A stretch of 64,000 nt of DNA from Streptomyces pristinaespiralis (lineage in GTDB: Bacteria; Actinomycetota; Actinomycetes; Streptomycetales; Streptomycetaceae): NCBI RefSeq assembly GCF_001278075.1, contig NZ_CP011340.1, forward strand, positions 1,178,001 through 1,242,000, written 5' to 3'. Below, in pieces: positions 31,191 to 40,269 of this stretch. The notes under the pieces were generated by a model, which did no database searches, was not told the origin of the DNA, and saw nothing but the letters and a program-made list of their open reading frames with translations. The position numbers and the translations under genes were made by a program. Numbering within the stretch: position 1 is the first letter of the stretch; every line of letters begins with the position of its first letter.

Positions 31191-31240
31191 GCCGTGAGTC
31201 TGCCCAGCCGTGCGGTCTTCTGAGCATGCAGGCCATGGGC

Positions 31241-31246
31241 TACGGT
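31241..31246 (+). promoter_or_regulatory. Leaderless-type -10 of the D-amino-acid oxidase gene
   Basis: TACGGT ends six bases before ATG 31253; the same hexamer and spacing precede the macro-domain gene at 59509. No Shine-Dalgarno is present. Confidence 0.4.
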
Positions 31247-31252
31247 CCCGGC

Positions 31253-32212
31253 ATGAGCGGCGACGTACTGGTCCTGGGCGGCGGGGCGGTGGGACTGACC
31301 ACGGCCCTGGTGCTGGCGGAGAGCGGCAAGCGGGTGCGGGTGTGGTCACGGGATCCCGCCGGCATGACCACTTCGGCCGTGGCGGGCGGGCTGTGGTGGC
31401 CGTATCGCATCGAGCCGGAGAAGCTGGTCGGCGAGTGGTCCCTGGAATCGCTGAGGGTGTACGAGGCACTGTCGGACCGGCCGGAGGAGACGGGCGTACG
31501 GCTGGTGCCCGGCGTCCACGCGGACACCCGTCTCGCGGGGCTCGGTCCCTGGGCCGCGCGGGTCGAAGGGCTGCGGGAGGTGGGCCCCCCGGAGCTGCCG
31601 CCGGGATTCTCCTCCGGTCTGCGCGCCCGGACCCCGCTGATCGACATGCCCGTCCATCTCGGCTGGCTGCTGCGGCGGCTGGAGGCCGCGGGCGGCACCG
31701 TGGAGGCGCGCGAGGCCGCATCCCTCGCACAGGCACGGTCGGAGAGCGGGGCGTCCGTCGTGGTCAACTGCACCGGTCTCGGGGCGCGCGAGCTGGTGCC
31801 GGACCCGTCCGTACGGCCGGTCCGCGGGCAGTTGGTGGTGGTGGAGAACCCGGGCGTCGAGGAGTGGTTCACCGCGGTGGACCACGCGTCGAGCGCGACG
31901 ACGTACCTCCTTCCGCAGCCCGGACGGCTGCTGTTGGGCGGCACCGCCGAGGAGGACTCATGGGACCTGGAGCCCCAAGAGGCCACGGCGGCGGCCATCG
32001 TCGAGCGGTGCGCCCGCATCCGTCCCGAGGTCGGCCGGGCCAAGGTGCTCGGGCACCGCGTCGGTCTGCGGCCCGCCCGGGACACCGGCGTACGGATCGA
32101 GTCGGAGCGCCTTCCGGGAGGGGCACTGCTGGTCCACAACTACGGCCACGGCGGGGCCGGCATCACCGTCGCCTGGGGTTGCGCGCAGGCAGCGGCCGCG
32201 CTCGTCGGGTAG
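31253..32212 (+). CDS. D-amino-acid oxidase, FAD-dependent
   Basis: A 319-residue flavoprotein that oxidises D-amino acids to imino acids with production of hydrogen peroxide. The FAD-binding motif is VLVLGGGAVGLTTALVLAE at the N-terminus, followed by GGLWWPYRIEP. The C-terminal signature is LLVHNYGHGGAGITVAWG. An in-frame ATG at 31226 exists, but the TACGGT element six bases upstream of 31253 supports the shorter, family-typical start. A ThiO-type glycine oxidase is less likely: there are no thiS/thiG neighbours, although a TPP riboswitch lies 280 bp downstream. Confidence 0.88.
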   Translation: MSGDVLVLGGGAVGLTTALVLAESGKRVRVWSRDPAGMTTSAVAGGLWWPYRIEPEKLVGEWSLESLRVYEALSDRPEETGVRLVPGVHADTRLAGLGPWAARVEGLREVGPPELPPGFSSGLRARTPLIDMPVHLGWLLRRLEAAGGTVEAREAASLAQARSESGASVVVNCTGLGARELVPDPSVRPVRGQLVVVENPGVEEWFTAVDHASSATTYLLPQPGRLLLGGTAEEDSWDLEPQEATAAAIVERCARIRPEVGRAKVLGHRVGLRPARDTGVRIESERLPGGALLVHNYGHGGAGITVAWGCAQAAAALVG

Positions 32213-32396
32213 GCGGCGGGGCTCATCCGGCGGGGCGTGTCCCAGGCGTTCCGGGGGGTGGCTTGGTGGCGAGTGCGGGTGGCGAGCCACGTGCCGAGGA
32301 CAGGTGGGGCCGATCATGTGCCGCACCGGGTGACACGGCCTCGCCGAGCACGGTACCCACCCGGAAAAGAGTCCGATTTTCTCCTCTTAACCCCTT

Positions 32397-32423
32397 TTGA
32401 CGGCATATGCAGAGAGTTATTCT
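32397..32423 (+). promoter_or_regulatory. Candidate promoter of the TPP riboswitch transcript
   Basis: In an AT-rich patch (32365-32425, unusual here), TTGACG (32397-32402) is followed after 15 bases by TATTCT (32418-32423). The spacing is short, so the assignment is tentative. A transcript would begin near 32430, about 60 bases before the riboswitch. Confidence 0.4.
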
Positions 32424-32487
32424 GGTAGCGGCCTACGAGGCGAGCGAGGGAGTTCGACCGGAGTAGCCGACTTCGGCGGAGTTACCC

Positions 32488-32586
32488 GCCGGGGCCGACG
32501 TCGACGGTCGGGCTGAGAGGTCCGAAGGTTTCAGGACCGGAGGACGACCCCCACCACCTGATCCGGACAATGCCGGCGCAGGGAGC
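32488..32586 (+). ncRNA. TPP (THI element) riboswitch
   Basis: The thiamine-pyrophosphate aptamer is complete in its conserved parts. P2 is GGGG at 32491-32494 with CCCCC at 32548-32552; P3 is CCGAC (32495-32499) with GTCGG (32507-32511); CTGAGA lies at 32513-32518; an optional P3a hairpin pairs GGTCC (32519-32523) with GGACC (32534-32538). ACCTGATC is at 32556-32563, P5 pairs CCGG (32563-32566) with CCGG (32573-32576), and GCGCAGGGA closes at 32576-32584. P1 is weak. It reads on the plus strand, but the next plus-strand gene is over 6 kb away; what follows is the 3' end of the convergent dppF-like gene. Confidence 0.93.
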
Positions 32587-32635
32587 CCGTCTCGTAGGTT
32601 CTTGCATGCCGCGTGTCCGGGCCGGACAGCGCACC

Positions 32636-32669
32636 GCGACGGCCCGCCGTCCCCCGGGCCGGCCGTCGC
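32636..32669. terminator. Hairpin between riboswitch and the convergent importer operon
   Basis: Nine-bp stem (32636-32644 with 32661-32669) and 16-base loop, touching the stop codon of the importer operon's last gene. It could end either that operon or the riboswitch transcript, which it follows by about 50 bases. Confidence 0.55.
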
Positions 32670-33527
32670 TCAAACCGCCTCCGCCCTCGCCGCCCCGGCC
32701 CGGGCACGGACCACGTCCGAGGGGTCCCAGTCCTGGTGCGGGACGGAGCTGAGCAGCAGCCGTGTGTACGCGTGCCGCGGTGTGCGCAGCACCCGGTCCG
32801 TCGGCCCCTGTTCGACCACGGTGCCCCTGCGCATGACGACGGTCTCGTCCGTGATGTGCTGCACGACGGCCAGGTCGTGACCGACGAAGACCAGGGCCAC
32901 ACCCGTGTCCTCCCTGATCTCGGCGAGGAGCTGGAGGATCTGGGCCTGGATGGACACGTCGAGCGCCGCGACCGCCTCGTCGAGGACCAGGATGCGCGGG
33001 TCGACGGCGAGGGCGCGCGCGATGGCCAGACGCTGGCGCTGTCCGCCGGAGAGCTCGTGCGGCCGGGCGTCGGCCTCGCGGGCACCCAGTCCGACCCGGT
33101 CCAGGAGTGACCGGACGCGGTCCTCCACCGCGGGGTGCCCGTGCAGGCGCAGGGCGGTGCGGAGGCACTGGCCGGCGGTGAGGCGCGGGTCCAGCGAGAC
33201 GTAGGGGTCCTGGAAGACCATCTGGATCTCGCGTGCGCGGGCCAGCCGTTCGCGGCGGGAGCGCCCGCCACGGCGCGCGGTGTGCCGGTCCCGGCCGTTC
33301 ACGGTGACGGTGCCGGCGTCGGGTCTCTCGAGACCGGCGAGCATGCGGGCCACGGTGCTCTTGCCTGAGCCCGACTCTCCGACGATGCCGACGGAACCGC
33401 CCTCGGGCAGGGTGAAGGAGACCCGGTCGGCCGCGGTGAGCGTGCCGCCGCCCGGTAGCCGGAAGGTCTTACGGAGCCCGTCGACGACGAGCAGGGACGT
33501 GCCGTTCCGCGGGCTGTCGTCGTTCAT
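32670..33527 (-). CDS. Peptide/nickel-type ABC importer ATPase (DppF/OppF-like)
   Basis: A 285-residue cytoplasmic ATPase. Walker A GESGSGKST near residue 50, Q-loop MVFQDPYVSLDPR, signature LSGGQRQRLAIA, Walker B ILVLDEAVAALD. It lacks a Cys-rich oligopeptide C-terminal domain. ATG 33527 overlaps the preceding ATPase stop by 4 bp. Last gene of a six-gene unit that begins with the C45 hydrolase at 39241. Confidence 0.92.
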   Translation of the reverse strand: MNDDSPRNGTSLLVVDGLRKTFRLPGGGTLTAADRVSFTLPEGGSVGIVGESGSGKSTVARMLAGLERPDAGTVTVNGRDRHTARRGGRSRRERLARAREIQMVFQDPYVSLDPRLTAGQCLRTALRLHGHPAVEDRVRSLLDRVGLGAREADARPHELSGGQRQRLAIARALAVDPRILVLDEAVAALDVSIQAQILQLLAEIREDTGVALVFVGHDLAVVQHITDETVVMRRGTVVEQGPTDRVLRTPRHAYTRLLLSSVPHQDWDPSDVVRARAGAARAEAV

Positions 33528-34573
33528 GGTGTGCTCCTGACGGCCGGTTCGGACGGTTGTGCGTGATCCTCGGTGGTGCCTGTCGCCGGTTTGTCGAGTG
33601 GACCACCCGGGGGCAGTTCGCCGATCCGGCGGCAGGCGGCCGTGCCGGCGTCGGCCAGTGGCAGCGGCTCCGGGGTCCACGTCTCGCACGTGGGCTCGCT
33701 GTGGGGGCAGCGTGCCGTGAACGGGCAGCCGGGAAAGGCGTCCGCGAGCGACGGGGGCCGGCCGGGTATCGGACGGATCGCCCGTGGTGTCCCGCCCAGT
33801 TCGGGCGAGCAGTCCAGCAGGCCCCTGGTGTACGGGTGCCGGGCGTGGGCGAAGAGGCGTTGGGCCTGCTGCTCCTCGACGACACGGCCCGCGTACATCA
33901 CATACACGCGGTCGCAGTAGGCCGCGGCGAGGTGCAGGTCGTGGGTGATGAACAGCATGCCCAGCTCCCGCTGTTCGCGCAGCCGGCGCAGCAGGGCGAG
34001 GATCTCCGCCTGGGTGGTGACGTCCAGGGCGCTGGTGGCCTCGTCGGCGAGGAGCAGACGCGGCTCGGCGGCGAGCGCACCGGCGATGACGACGCGCTGC
34101 AGCATTCCTCCTGACATCTCGTGCGGCCGTTGCCTGACGCGCCGTTCGGGGTCGGGCAGGCCGACGGCGTCGAGGAGTCCGATCGCGGTCCCCAGCGCTC
34201 TGCGCCGCTCCCTACCGGAGCCTTCACCGGGGCGGACCAGCCTTTCGACGAGGAAGTCCCCGACCCGGCGCACGGGATTGAGGGCGGAGCGCGGGTCCTG
34301 GTGGACCATGGCCACCGTGCGGGCACGGTGCTCGCGCAGGCGCGTGCCGGTCATCGGCAGCACGTCCGCGCCGTCGACCAGCACCCTGCCTTCCGTCCGC
34401 GCGCCGTCGGGCAGGATGCCCAGTGCGGCCTTCGCGGTGGTGGACTTGCCCGAGCCGGATTCACCGACGAGGCCGACGACCTCACCGGTGCGGACCTGGA
34501 GGGACACCTCCGCCAGCAACGGTCGGGCGGCGCCCGGCAGATGTACGGTCAGGTTCTCGATGTCGAGCAGCAT
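33524..34573 (-). CDS. Peptide/nickel-type ABC importer ATPase (DppD/OppD-like)
   Basis: A 349-residue partner ATPase. Walker A GESGSGKST near 38, Q-loop MVHQDPRSALNP, the divergent signature MSGGMLQRVVIA usual for DppD, and Walker B LLLADEATSALD. The C-terminal oligopeptide domain has the CPF-x3-CPHSEPTC cysteine cluster and a further Cys, which in the family can bind an iron-sulfur cluster. A Pro/Thr-rich tail of about 25 residues follows. Five bp separate it from the permease gene. Confidence 0.92.
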   Translation of the reverse strand: MLLDIENLTVHLPGAARPLLAEVSLQVRTGEVVGLVGESGSGKSTTAKAALGILPDGARTEGRVLVDGADVLPMTGTRLREHRARTVAMVHQDPRSALNPVRRVGDFLVERLVRPGEGSGRERRRALGTAIGLLDAVGLPDPERRVRQRPHEMSGGMLQRVVIAGALAAEPRLLLADEATSALDVTTQAEILALLRRLREQRELGMLFITHDLHLAAAYCDRVYVMYAGRVVEEQQAQRLFAHARHPYTRGLLDCSPELGGTPRAIRPIPGRPPSLADAFPGCPFTARCPHSEPTCETWTPEPLPLADAGTAACRRIGELPPGGPLDKPATGTTEDHAQPSEPAVRSTP

Positions 34574-36392: not shown

Positions 36393-38033
36393 TCACTTCG
36401 CCCCGAGCGCTGCGGCCCAGGGGTAGTAGAGGTACGCCATGGACGCGGGCGGGCCGGTCAGCTTGTCGTCGATGACGAGGGCCGTGGGCGTCTGTGCGAC
36501 GGGGATCCACAGCGCGGCTTCGCTGAACCGGCGCTGCACGTCGATCACGAGCGCGGCGCGCTTCTTGTCGTCCAGCGTCCGCATCGCCTCCTTGACCTTG
36601 CTGTCGTAGTCAGGGCTGCTGAAGCCGATCCAGTTGTTGGAGCTGTCGGAGAGGCCGTTGTCGTAGAAGCCGATGGGGTCGCTCTTGGAGATGTACCAGT
36701 CGGCGACGAGCACATCGATGCCGGCGCGGGCCTCCTTGTCACCGTAGAACTCGCCGTACTCGGCGGGCGGGACGGTCTTGATCTGGCCCTTGAGGCCGAT
36801 CTGCTGGAGCGCGGCGCGGACGGCGTTGGCGATCACCAGGCGGCCCTGGCTGCTGTCCGTGCCGATGACGATCGGCTTGTCGGGAGCCGCCTTCGCGTTC
36901 TCCACGAGCTTCTTCGCGGCGGCGATGTCGCCGGCGCCGGGCCGGGCCGGAGCTCCCGTGAGCTGCTTCTGGGCGGCGGCGAAGGCCTCCTTCTCGTAAC
37001 CCCAGGCGCCTGATCCGACGGGGGTGGCCCACGGCTCCACGAGACCGCCGTAGCCGGACCGGGCGATGCCCGCGCGGTCCAGGGCGAGCGCGAGGGCCCT
37101 GCGGATGTCCGGGTCGGCGAGGCCGCCGCGCTCCGTGGGGATCAGGGCGAGGGCGGCGGTGCTCGGTCCGTAGTGCTGATCGAGTCCCTTGGTGCCGCGC
37201 AGGGCCGCGGCCGTGCTGATGGAGTCGGCGTACGTGCCGTCGGCGGCGCCGGTCTTCAGGGCGTTCACCATGGCGCTGTCGTCGGCCCAGCGGAAGACCA
37301 CCTGCTGGGTGAGAGGCTTCTCGCCCCAGTAGGAGTCGCTGCGGTTGATGACGATCGAGTCGCCGGACTTCCAGTCGCCGAGCCGGTAGGGGCCCGAGCA
37401 GGCGTCGGGCCGGCCGGGCGTGCCGAACTCCTTGCCGGCCTTCTCGACCTGCTCGCGGTTGTAGACCAACCCCGCGTCACCGGCCAGCGCCTTGGTGAAC
37501 AGCGCGTCCGGCTGCTTGAACGTGATGGTGATCTCGAGGTCACCGGTCCTGGTCATCTCCGCGACGTTCGCGAACTCGTCGGACTGCTCCATCTCCGGCC
37601 GGGCGTGGCGCCGGAGGCTGAACAGGACGTCGTCCGCCGTCATCGCGGAGCCGTCGTGGAAGACGACGTCGTCGCGCAGGGAGAGGACGAGGGTCTTGTC
37701 GTCCGGTCCGGTGGCCTGCCGGACCAGGGAAGGCTTCACGGACATGTCGGGCCGGAGCTGGTACAGCCGCTCGCACACGTTGCTGAGGACGGTGCGGCCG
37801 GCGCTGCCGCCCTGGGTGTCCAGGTCGAGGGAGTCGGGTTCGTCCTCCAGCAGCCAGTTGACGGTGGAGACCTCCCCCTTGGCCTTGGCGGTGGTGGGGG
37901 TGAGTGCGAGCTGTGCGGCGTCGGCGGTGGCGCCGGCTCCCGTCGGACGGGTGGTGTCCGCGCCGCTGCACGCGGTGGTGAGGGCCATCGCCCCGGCGAG
38001 GCCGGCGGCGGCGACGGTGGTTCTGAGCTTCAT
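36393..38033 (-). CDS. Substrate-binding lipoprotein, family 5 (DppA/OppA-like)
   Basis: A 546-residue secreted lipoprotein that captures the importer's substrate. The signal peptide ends in the lipobox LTTAC (Cys22). The family 5 core includes SNVCERLYQLRPD and VVFHDGSAMTADDVLFSL. The start overlaps the C45 gene stop by 4 bp. Ligand not predictable; the paired hydrolase suggests an N-acylated or beta-lactam-like or peptide compound. Confidence 0.92.
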   Translation of the reverse strand: MKLRTTVAAAGLAGAMALTTACSGADTTRPTGAGATADAAQLALTPTTAKAKGEVSTVNWLLEDEPDSLDLDTQGGSAGRTVLSNVCERLYQLRPDMSVKPSLVRQATGPDDKTLVLSLRDDVVFHDGSAMTADDVLFSLRRHARPEMEQSDEFANVAEMTRTGDLEITITFKQPDALFTKALAGDAGLVYNREQVEKAGKEFGTPGRPDACSGPYRLGDWKSGDSIVINRSDSYWGEKPLTQQVVFRWADDSAMVNALKTGAADGTYADSISTAAALRGTKGLDQHYGPSTAALALIPTERGGLADPDIRRALALALDRAGIARSGYGGLVEPWATPVGSGAWGYEKEAFAAAQKQLTGAPARPGAGDIAAAKKLVENAKAAPDKPIVIGTDSSQGRLVIANAVRAALQQIGLKGQIKTVPPAEYGEFYGDKEARAGIDVLVADWYISKSDPIGFYDNGLSDSSNNWIGFSSPDYDSKVKEAMRTLDDKKRAALVIDVQRRFSEAALWIPVAQTPTALVIDDKLTGPPASMAYLYYPWAAALGAK

Positions 38034-39241
38034 GCTGGGCTCCTGAGCGGGGAAGGACGAAGAGCGGAAACAGCGTCAGTTCGGGGCGTGGGGCCGTCGT
38101 AGAGATTCCAGGGCAGGTGTTGGTACTCGCGGTCGCAGGGCGTGCCGGCCGTGACGTGGTAGTCGCCGGTGGTGAGGTCGACGCACGAGGAGACGAGCGT
38201 CTGCCACTGCTTGACCTGCGGTCTTCGCGGGTCGATGTGGGTGCACAGCGACTCGGGGTGGCCCAGGTGGTCCGACATCGCCTGCTTGATGAGCTTGCGC
38301 GACTCGTCCGCGCCGGTGGACCCGCGCAGCAGGCTCAGCCCCTCCTGCGCGCGGGGCACGCGCACCAGGGAATCGGCGGCCATCGGGCGGTAGTCAGCGG
38401 CGAGAGCGGCGGGGACTCCCGCCTGGTAGTGGTTGCCGTGCACCAGCAGGCCGTCGGTCGGGTACATCCAGCCGTGGCCGGCCGGCGTGGTCTCCAGATC
38501 GATGGCGAATCCCTCCCGGCAGGTCAGCAGCGCGTTGCTGGCGATGTGCGCGCGGGTGCGGCAGAGCTCGTCGAGGGCGTCGGTGATCGTGGCGCGGTCG
38601 AGGACGCTGCGCCGGATCACGGTCTGCGGGAGGCCGACCGTGTCGTCGAAGCGGCCGCCGAGCCCGTTGGCGTTGAGCGCGATCCCCGCGGAGTTGGCGC
38701 CCTGGCGGCCGATCTGTCCGGCCTCCACCTGCATGACGACGGTCGGTTTCGGCGGCTGGACGACGCGGATCATGACGACGGTGTCCGCCACCCCGGCCCG
38801 CCAGTCCCAGTTCTGGCCGGCCCAGACGTGCCCGTCGCCGCTGGCCGGGCCGTACGCGGCGAACGAGGTGCAGCCGTCCGGCGGCTCCTCCTGCGGGACC
38901 TGGGTGCCGGGGCCGTCGTGCTCCCGCATCCGTGCGAAGGAGTCGTCGTAGATGACCTCGCCGCGGGCGTTGAGGGCGAGTATGTCGAGCAGGCCGACGC
39001 CTGCGCCGTCGGCGATGCCCTGCATCTCCTCCAGGAGATGGGGTGCGTAGGCACGGACGGGCTCGAGCCAGCGGGCCGCCCGGGAGGTGACCTGCTGCCA
39101 GGTCAGCCCGGAGGACGATCCGAACGCCTCCGCGTAATAGGCGAGAGCGGTCCCGATCTGCGGGGCGACCGCCTCGCCGTACCGGCGGCCGCGCTCGACT
39201 GGGGTCCCCGACACCTCGATGACGGGAAGGGCGTGTTTCAT
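38030..39241 (-). CDS. C45-family autoproteolytic acyltransferase/hydrolase
   Basis: A 403-residue N-terminal-nucleophile hydrolase related to fungal acyl-CoA:isopenicillin N acyltransferase. The self-cleavage site is Gly123-Cys124 (PPDGCTSFAAYG), giving a small alpha chain and a beta chain with Cys124 as nucleophile. WAGQNWDW and NSAGIALNANGLGG are conserved in the family. ATG 39241 has GGAG about nine bases upstream, chosen over the longer open frame. No signal peptide, so it probably acts inside the cell on imported compounds. It is the first gene of the importer operon and is divergent from an RpiR regulator. Confidence 0.9.
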   Translation of the reverse strand: MKHALPVIEVSGTPVERGRRYGEAVAPQIGTALAYYAEAFGSSSGLTWQQVTSRAARWLEPVRAYAPHLLEEMQGIADGAGVGLLDILALNARGEVIYDDSFARMREHDGPGTQVPQEEPPDGCTSFAAYGPASGDGHVWAGQNWDWRAGVADTVVMIRVVQPPKPTVVMQVEAGQIGRQGANSAGIALNANGLGGRFDDTVGLPQTVIRRSVLDRATITDALDELCRTRAHIASNALLTCREGFAIDLETTPAGHGWMYPTDGLLVHGNHYQAGVPAALAADYRPMAADSLVRVPRAQEGLSLLRGSTGADESRKLIKQAMSDHLGHPESLCTHIDPRRPQVKQWQTLVSSCVDLTTGDYHVTAGTPCDREYQHLPWNLYDGPTPRTDAVSALRPSPLRSPA

Positions 39242-39275
39242 CGCGAGGACTCCTCGGGACACAGGTGTGCTGTAA

Positions 39276-39292
39276 TGTTCATTTCGAGAACA
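39276..39292. promoter_or_regulatory. Inverted repeat in the C45-RpiR divergent promoter region
   Basis: TGTTC-N7-GAACA, in a 113-bp AT-rich intergenic region between the divergent genes; candidate RpiR operator. A second partial repeat, GTAACGGCCGTAACG, lies nearer the RpiR start. Confidence 0.4.
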
Positions 39293-39354
39293 CGAGATCC
39301 TGGAACGGAATACACACGAGCGTAACGGCCGTAACGTAGGAGTCAATACCTGTA

Positions 39355-40269
39355 ATGAAGAATCCAGAATCCGGCAGCGCCGCGCCCGGTGGTCTGACCC
39401 GCCTGCGCGCCACCGTGCGCGACCAGTGGGACGAGCTGTCGGCCGCCGAGCGCACCGTCGCGCAGTACCTGGTCAGCGCGCCCGCCGAGCAGGTGATGTT
39501 CGCCAGCGCGCAGGAGCTGGGGACGGCCAGCGGCACCAGCAACGCCACGGTGGTTCGGGCCCTCCAGCGCCTGGGTTACGCCGGGCTGCCCGCGCTGAAG
39601 CGGGAACTGGCCGCGGACTTCACCTCGGCACTGGCGCCCGAGGTCCGGCTGAAACAGCGCATCGCGCATGTCGGGCAGGACCTGCAGACCATCTGGAACG
39701 ACGTCTTCGACGAGACGCAGGACCGGATCGACCAGTGCCGGCGCCTCACCGGGGCCGACGCCCTCCAGCAGGCCGTGGCCGCTCTCGCCGACGCCCGTGA
39801 GGTGCTTTGTTACGGCGTCGCCGCGTGCGAACTCGCGGCACGGCACCTCGCCCTGGCCCTCGGCCGTATCGGCCGCCGCGCGCGGTTCGTCGGCGCCACG
39901 GGGTTCGCGCTCGCCGACCCGCTGCTGTCACTGGCGCAGGGCGACACCGTGGTCATCTTCCAGCCCGGCAGGCCGCTGTCCGAACTCACGGTGCTGGTGG
40001 AGCGGGCGCGGTCGGTGGGCGCGAAGGTCGTGTTCGTGACGGACGAGCTGGGCGAGGCGTTCGAGGAGCGCGTCGACGCGATCCTCACCGCGCCCCACAC
40101 GCCGACCGGCATCACCAACGAGGCGCTGACAGGGCTCGTCGTCGCCGACGCGCTGCTGCTGGCCCTCACGACCCTGGACGAGACGCGCGCGGTCGAGCAC
40201 TCGCACCAGCTCACAGCACTGCGGGAACAGCTGCTTCCCCCGCGCGAGCAGCGCTCCAGGAAAGCCTGA
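39355..40269 (+). CDS. RpiR-family regulator with SIS domain
   Basis: A 304-residue regulator. The N-terminal HTH_6 region (LSAAERTVAQYLVSA, then SNATVVRALQRLGYAG) is followed by a sugar-isomerase (SIS) domain from about 120 (LADAREVLCYGVAACELAARH), which in this family usually senses a phosphosugar. It is divergent from the C45-importer operon and probably controls it, suggesting that the imported compound carries or yields an amino sugar. Confidence 0.9.
   Translation: MKNPESGSAAPGGLTRLRATVRDQWDELSAAERTVAQYLVSAPAEQVMFASAQELGTASGTSNATVVRALQRLGYAGLPALKRELAADFTSALAPEVRLKQRIAHVGQDLQTIWNDVFDETQDRIDQCRRLTGADALQQAVAALADAREVLCYGVAACELAARHLALALGRIGRRARFVGATGFALADPLLSLAQGDTVVIFQPGRPLSELTVLVERARSVGAKVVFVTDELGEAFEERVDAILTAPHTPTGITNEALTGLVVADALLLALTTLDETRAVEHSHQLTALREQLLPPREQRSRKA

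Follow-up and report, generated by a model that had tools for sequence, protein, structure and literature searches.

Sensors of vitamin B1 (TPP) normally sit at the start of thiamine genes, and TPP riboswitches are treated as cis elements. The HMP-PP (thiS motif) riboswitch belongs to the same pathway: In the accessible portion of its description, its aptamer is largely merged with the expression helix and it stands upstream of thiamine genes (PMC6478431). Some metabolite-binding RNAs exert their effect at a distance from where they are encoded. These include SreA and Rli55 (Listeria) and EutX (Enterococcus), SAM or B12 riboswitch RNAs of Listeria and Enterococcus for which the accessible portions of two papers give trans action as shown (PMC8383071, PMC7266159). 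Barrick and Breaker (2007) mention a handful of high-scoring aptamers that do not stand before the metabolite's genes and suggest either trans-acting antisense RNAs or recent orphaning (PMC2258182).

The RNA described here lies in a 64,000-nucleotide stretch of Streptomyces pristinaespiralis DNA (the window). It resembles the TPP riboswitch (RF00059, THI element) in core letters, P1–P5 topology, and strand logic, and is matched by that model over the model's full length; it differs in falling below the gathering score, in its long P3 arm, and in its 12-bp P1. Unlike a cis TPP riboswitch, it has neither a thiamine gene nor any consistent gene downstream, and does not qualify as a thiamine leader. 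SreA, Rli55, and EutX are, as far as the accessible text of those papers goes, made from riboswitches that also occur in ordinary positions or that respond to SAM or B12, whereas the window RNA is of the TPP ligand class, has no adjacent gene in common, and acts in trans only as we infer. It shares the thiamine pathway and the merger of aptamer and expression helix with the HMP-PP riboswitch as that source portrays it, with another fold and another ligand; no match to the HMP-PP class was found in 32200–32800 at E up to 10 (a result that holds if the Rfam release includes the class), and no thiamine gene follows. The accessible text of PMC2258182 names no family or species among its orphans, and here conservation at multiple sites speaks against recent orphaning. 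Among open-licence papers we found no title on a stand-alone TPP RNA or on this family, which is weak evidence of novelty.

Results

Extent and fold of the RNA

An initial annotation of the window had proposed an orphan TPP riboswitch at 32488–32669. The label of orphan TPP aptamer was right, and so was the plus strand: CUGAGA, ACCUGAUC, the P5 loop, and GCGNAGGGA, the elements by which a TPP aptamer is recognized, are all found there together with helices P1–P5. The extent was wrong. From the covariance model R1 (see below), the RF00059 match, and the predicted fold, we place the stand-alone RNA at 32430–32606 of the plus strand; it begins at 32430, its true 5′ half (32431–32460) falls outside the annotated extent, and 32607–32669 are not part of it.

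In the predicted fold, the 5′ strand of P1 (32431–32442) pairs with the 3′ strand CGUCUCGUAGGU (32588–32599) to give a 12-bp closing helix, after which comes a short U-rich tail. The GGG of P2 (32448–32450) pairs with CCC (32550–32552) and is paired in every cell of the 80-locus alignment. The long P3 arm takes up 64 bases (32451–32514), its base being formed by 32451–32460 with 32505–32514, and CUGAGA, the J3/2 element of TPP aptamers, lies at 32513–32518 and is invariant across the 31-sequence alignment. A P3a-like hairpin (GUCC/GGAC plus GGUU/GACC) at 32520–32545 is indicated by both the predicted fold and covariation. The predicted P4–P5 arm, ACCUGAUCCGG ACAAUG CCGGCGCAGGGA (32556–32584), which is lost in 12 core-less relatives, carries the conserved TPP aptamer letters ACCUGAUC (32556–32563) and GCGCAGGGA (32576–32584) and the P5 loop ACAAUG (32567–32572). 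All of these features are on the plus strand.

The minimum-energy fold of the single sequence has −87.4 kcal/mol (z −2.65; two of 200 shuffles were at least as low), and P1, P2, and P3 are present both in this fold and in the 31-sequence consensus. The distal part of P3 is unrelated in other lineages, and the P3 arm is kept in the 12 core-less relatives.

Comparison with known RNA families

RF00059 aligns full-length at 32480–32601 with 40.3 bits (E 1.9e-6 in a 601-base search at a relaxed threshold), compared with a gathering score of 54.3 bits, and a scan of the whole window at the Rfam gathering threshold gives no match. By score the RNA is therefore not an Rfam member, an outcome that the initial annotation had held to count against a riboswitch; the model, however, misplaces the helices. 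It takes P1 and P2 from letters within the P3 arm, and the low score accompanies this misplacement. Since the long P3 arm and the 12-bp P1 put the true 5′ half further upstream, the RNA starts 57 bases before the position first given.

None of 10 related loci reaches the RF00059 cut-off. When ten genomes were searched with this model, five stand-alone RNAs appeared at 35.5–41.3 bits, all under the cut-off, and the other stand-alone RNAs of those genomes were unlisted at E up to 1e-4. Rfam models besides RF00059 have no match in 32200–32800 at E up to 10. The window genome has three other RF00059 matches, which precede genes for ThiC, a DAO-family protein (ThiO-like), and a solute-binding protein (families from Pfam); we take the latter two to be ThiO and a thiamine-binding protein. 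In these ordinary TPP switches a start codon comes shortly past the core.

A family of stand-alone RNAs in Streptomyces and Embleya

A DNA search with 32380–32670 against 199 Streptomyces genomes gave long matches at 70%–93% identity; some match was present in 110 of the 199, many of the rows being short chance matches. We aligned the window RNA with 29 others from Streptomyces and one from Embleya, and built R1 from this 31-sequence alignment. Two-sided changes occur in 12 of its 50 consensus pairs; CUGAGA and most P4–P5 core letters are invariant, while loops and arms vary. The window RNA scores 189.4 bits against R1, being itself one of the 31 sequences that built the model.

R1 matches 68 of the 199 Streptomyces genomes at 69.9–216.8 bits. 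The next match has 45.8 bits, and the lower-scoring matches that we inspected are ordinary TPP switches. In Embleya, another family of the same order, 6 of 14 genomes have the RNA, one of them (G209) in two copies. Eleven of the 394 genomes in a sample of the class match at E up to 1e-12: nine from the window genus, G666 (122 bits), and G766 (56 bits). We regard the G766 match (L228), which overlaps the beginning of a DAO-family gene, as an ordinary switch and therefore count one carrier outside the order. All carriers but one in the Embleya and class samples have a single copy. The record of one Embleya RNA (L035; NZ_CP108785.1) is labelled a 5.7-Mb plasmid and has only eight features in its gene table; its size suggests a chromosome. 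Because R1 and the second model R2 (see below) were trained on known members, and searches of more than 40 genomes filter more strictly, divergent relatives may be missed in these counts.

A further 80 loci, out of at least 119 stretches, all titled Streptomyces, were found with a pattern requiring part of the P3 arm and CTGAGAGG, and are thus biased toward intact cores; some come from the same genomes as the genus sample. These loci have 98.3% standard pairs, and 12 of the 50 pairs show two-sided changes, including four of the six consensus pairs of the P3a-like hairpin; for the P1 helix the count is five of 15. The covariation score is 0.126, compared with 0.102 in shuffles (none of 500 reaches the observed value) and at most 0.058 in a slid control, although the loci were aligned with R1, so that the counts lean toward the model, and kinship alone can beat shuffles without structure. 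The stand-alone family is well supported.

Genomic sites and neighboring genes

Merging duplicates among 190 alignment rows (42 + 68 + 80) leaves 164 unique RNAs. They occupy 30 sites by flanking DNA and 28 by neighboring proteins, or 29 and 27 unrelated sites, respectively, without L228; the 164-RNA and 30-site counts include L228 and the degenerate L240, which lacks P1, and one RNA (L121) is cut by a contig end. Overlap with predicted coding genes does not exceed 30 bases for any of the 164. At the main site, which has 102 of the 164 RNAs, genes for an aldehyde dehydrogenase and a ferredoxin precede the RNA, and a gene for a TetR-family regulator converges on it from downstream. These neighbors were called by a third-position-GC gene finder, three of them being confirmed by Pfam; later gene calls used a finder trained on the codon usage of the window.

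Of the 164 RNAs, 135 have a first downstream gene on the minus strand, 25 have one on the plus strand, and four have none, and the median distance to the converging stop is 36 bases. We considered convergent orientation as a signal and rejected it, since the per-site count (majority strand, L228 counted) is 17 minus to 13 plus, which is no preference.

A Pfam scan of the first downstream gene, using one carrier for each of the 30 sites, found no thiamine family at any of 29 sites (L228 excepted). The families represented include TetR, aminotransferase, GMC oxidoreductase, DUF2867, xylanase, O-methyltransferase, ABC ATPase, aldehyde dehydrogenase, SpoIIE phosphatase (two sites), P-type ATPase, deacetylase, sulfate permease, and amylase, with an integrase-core gene at the L235 site; for L266, L231, and L037, the first downstream gene has no Pfam match at E up to 1e-8. 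Elsewhere, at the site of L248, L251, and L259, the RNA adjoins a tRNA gene.

The initial annotation had suggested, as one of two possibilities, that a thiamine gene was lost here. The relatives do not bear this out: The RNA is found at 29 unrelated sites, most with a promoter-like box, and in the one carrier scanned for each of them the first gene downstream is not a thiamine gene. An RNA that carries its box to many unrelated sites without a thiamine gene looks like a stand-alone unit, not a local relic.

The window's own surroundings were largely described correctly beforehand. A plus-strand gene had been said to be more than 6 kb away, and the next one found by the codon-usage gene finder starts at 39355, at a distance of 6.7 kb. 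The predicted dppF-like tail on the opposite strand, after a hairpin, corresponds to a converging minus-strand gene for an oligopeptide-type ABC ATPase (32670–33689), just before which lies a 9-bp inverted repeat (32636–32669; 32636–32644 with 32661–32669) that is outside the RNA and is probably the end of the importer operon. Directly before the importer's solute-binding protein is a minus-strand gene (38030–39346) whose product has an AAT (acyl-CoA:6-aminopenicillanic acid acyl-transferase) domain, a possible clue to what sort of amide or peptide the importer takes up. Upstream of the RNA, on the same strand, is a DAO-family gene (31226–32212), the family of thiO.

Homology to the nearest sampled relative (G173; L036) runs from 28001, where the comparison started, to 32614 at 92.6% identity, and ends eight bases past the modelled RNA; beyond this point there is only a 37-base match at 32964–33000. 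The importer operon is absent from that relative, where other genes come after the RNA. Given this break, the dpp-type operon beside the RNA looks like a local accident, and the inverted repeat at 32636–32669 goes with the operon. When up to three genes on either side were compared, the window site had no neighboring protein family in common with any other site at a matching side and strand. The proposed antisense link between thiamine status and the importer finds no counterpart in these comparisons.

A promoter-like box and the ends of the RNA

A putative −10-like box, TATTCT (TANNNT), lies at 32418–32423 of the plus strand and recurs across the RNAs. TANNNT is found 4–18 bases upstream of the RNA in 161 of the 164 unique RNAs, compared with 23.6 expected from mononucleotide shuffles, and at 28 of the 30 sites (L228 counted). 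The conserved box agrees with a study of S. lividans start sites, which reports TAnnnT at −10 (PMC8079986). Also in the window is a putative −35-like hexamer, TTGACG (32397–32402, plus strand), separated from the −10-like box by 15 bases, which is slightly short for a spacer.

A start 6–7 bases past the box would place the first base at the P1 5′ strand. At the other end, the tail after P1 is mildly U-rich (a weak U-run, with a mean of 2.9 T in seven bases), and conservation fades within ∼14 bases. In this tail (32600–32614 of the window and the same place in relatives) an ATG or GTG occurs in 120 of 161 RNAs, compared with 51.5 expected from control windows. The reading frames after P1 range in length from two to over 230 codons, with no relation between sites in their first residues; we found no conserved frame.

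Because P1 begins at the predicted start and conservation ends just past P1, the aptamer itself seems to be the noncoding RNA. Of the earlier suggestions, that of a switch controlling a noncoding RNA came nearest to the truth.

Loss of the TPP-binding core

In twelve Streptomyces relatives CUGAGA and P4–P5 are missing, although the −10-like box, P1, and the P3 arm are retained (L236, L237, L242, L244, L245, L246, L260, L261, L262, L266, L238, and L239). Seven come from the genus sample and five from a sample of the order (293 genomes). L266 alone lies away from the main site, and every one of the 12 retains the box and the 3′ strand of P1. The shortest, L238 and L239, have 118 bases, and the lengths indicate at least three deletion patterns. 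In a consensus derived from these same RNAs, 98.2% of pairs are kept. The RNA can thus persist without its sensor.

Given the bias of the 80 pattern-found loci toward intact cores, we quote core loss from the 68 genus-sample RNAs. By pattern, 59 of the 68 cores are intact, four partly altered, and five lost. On inspection, seven are lost and two altered (nine of 68 in all); in L244 and L246, which are core-less, a chance CCTGA had misled the pattern. Among the RNAs of the other family (Embleya), the core is altered in four of seven (L231, L232, L234, and L235), which argues against strict upkeep of TPP binding there. L035, L227, L229, L230, L233, and L247–L259 keep the core by pattern, with P3 arms unlike that of the window. 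Judged by these core letters, TPP binding is not kept everywhere.

R2, which was built from the 12 core-less RNAs, matches 57 of the 199 Streptomyces genomes at E up to 1e-9. None is a new carrier: All 57 are already among the 68 found with R1.

Discussion

Computation establishes the family, its fold, the −10-like box, the absence of a linked gene, and the loss of the core in some relatives. On this basis we see about an even chance that the window holds an autonomous, ancestrally TPP-binding small RNA gene of ∼175 bases whose product acts in trans. Somewhat short of an even chance, we tentatively propose that the family as a whole consists of free-standing TPP-aptamer small RNAs acting in trans, in which vitamin B1 status would gate a diffusible RNA instead of the mRNA that bears the sensor.

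The RNA would be transcribed from its own promoter, starting with the P1 5′ strand and ending just past the P1 3′ strand, with no gene for it to switch. TPP would lock the P2–P5 junction and dock P5 on P3, and its binding would change the shape, the lifetime, or the partner-binding of the free RNA. Trans action on a protein or mRNA would run through the scaffold, with the elongated P3 arm as its likeliest part; P1 and the P3 arm, which outlast the sensor, most likely hold the effector. Transcription, TPP binding, trans action, and the role of P3 are what we infer. A point against this reading is P1, a long, GC-rich helix that may stay closed whether or not TPP is bound, so that no obvious switching helix is left. 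As a candidate target, we considered pairing of the RNA 5′ end with the thiC ribosome site (GUAGGUC in L003) and rejected it, the letters not being kept in the other thiC leaders that we inspected. In the simplest history, the ancestor would have been a stand-alone RNA that bound TPP and already had a long P3; the arm would then have become fixed in one Streptomyces group, several members of which later lost the sensor.

Several other explanations bear on the same data. The RNA might be a structural RNA descended from a TPP riboswitch, its fold kept as a scaffold to which a partner binds, irrespective of TPP. That twelve relatives live without the core and several others have altered cores is in keeping with this, while the invariance of the ligand-side letters in the 31-sequence alignment, where loops and arms vary, and the 59 of 68 cores intact by pattern make it, in our view, unlikely. 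Spread of a mobile or selfish RNA element without host function would account for the many unrelated sites, the two copies in G209, the integrase-core gene at L235, and the site that adjoins a tRNA; it fits poorly with the single shared site of 102 of the 164 RNAs, which indicates long vertical descent, and with one copy per genome in all Embleya and class-sample carriers but one, and we regard it as improbable.

We rank still lower a cis riboswitch for a short frame starting just after P1, with a ribosome site inside the P1 3′ strand. The excess of ATG or GTG after P1 (120 of 161 RNAs) is what it would predict, and frames of such different length with unrelated first residues are not. Below this comes antisense control, with the transcript extending antisense to dppF of the importer: The minus-strand first downstream gene of 135 of 164 RNAs and the median of 36 bases to a converging stop suggest it, whereas the near-balance of 17 to 13 among sites, the unrelated neighbors, and a nearest relative without the importer operon make it a very poor prospect. 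Least probable of all, and already contradicted, is a conventional switch left behind when its thiamine gene was lost. A gene of the thiO family does lie just upstream; it is on the same strand, however, where a switch would not act, and the RNA recurs at 70%–93% DNA identity (long matches) at sites where no thiamine gene is first downstream.

If the trans reading is true, the relatives that lost the sensor amount to a natural experiment in which the effector (P1 and the P3 arm) is set apart from it. With a conserved family, a promoter-like box, many unrelated sites, and sensor-less relatives, the 2007 question of trans action or relic, as put in the accessible text of that paper, becomes directly testable. 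The family also illustrates how a curated score cut-off can conceal an entire RNA family when one arm is enlarged, a stand-alone TPP RNA having been overlooked by standard annotation. The RNA is present in roughly one in three of the sampled Streptomyces genomes, at many unrelated sites, and vitamin B1 may there control a free RNA instead of a neighboring gene.
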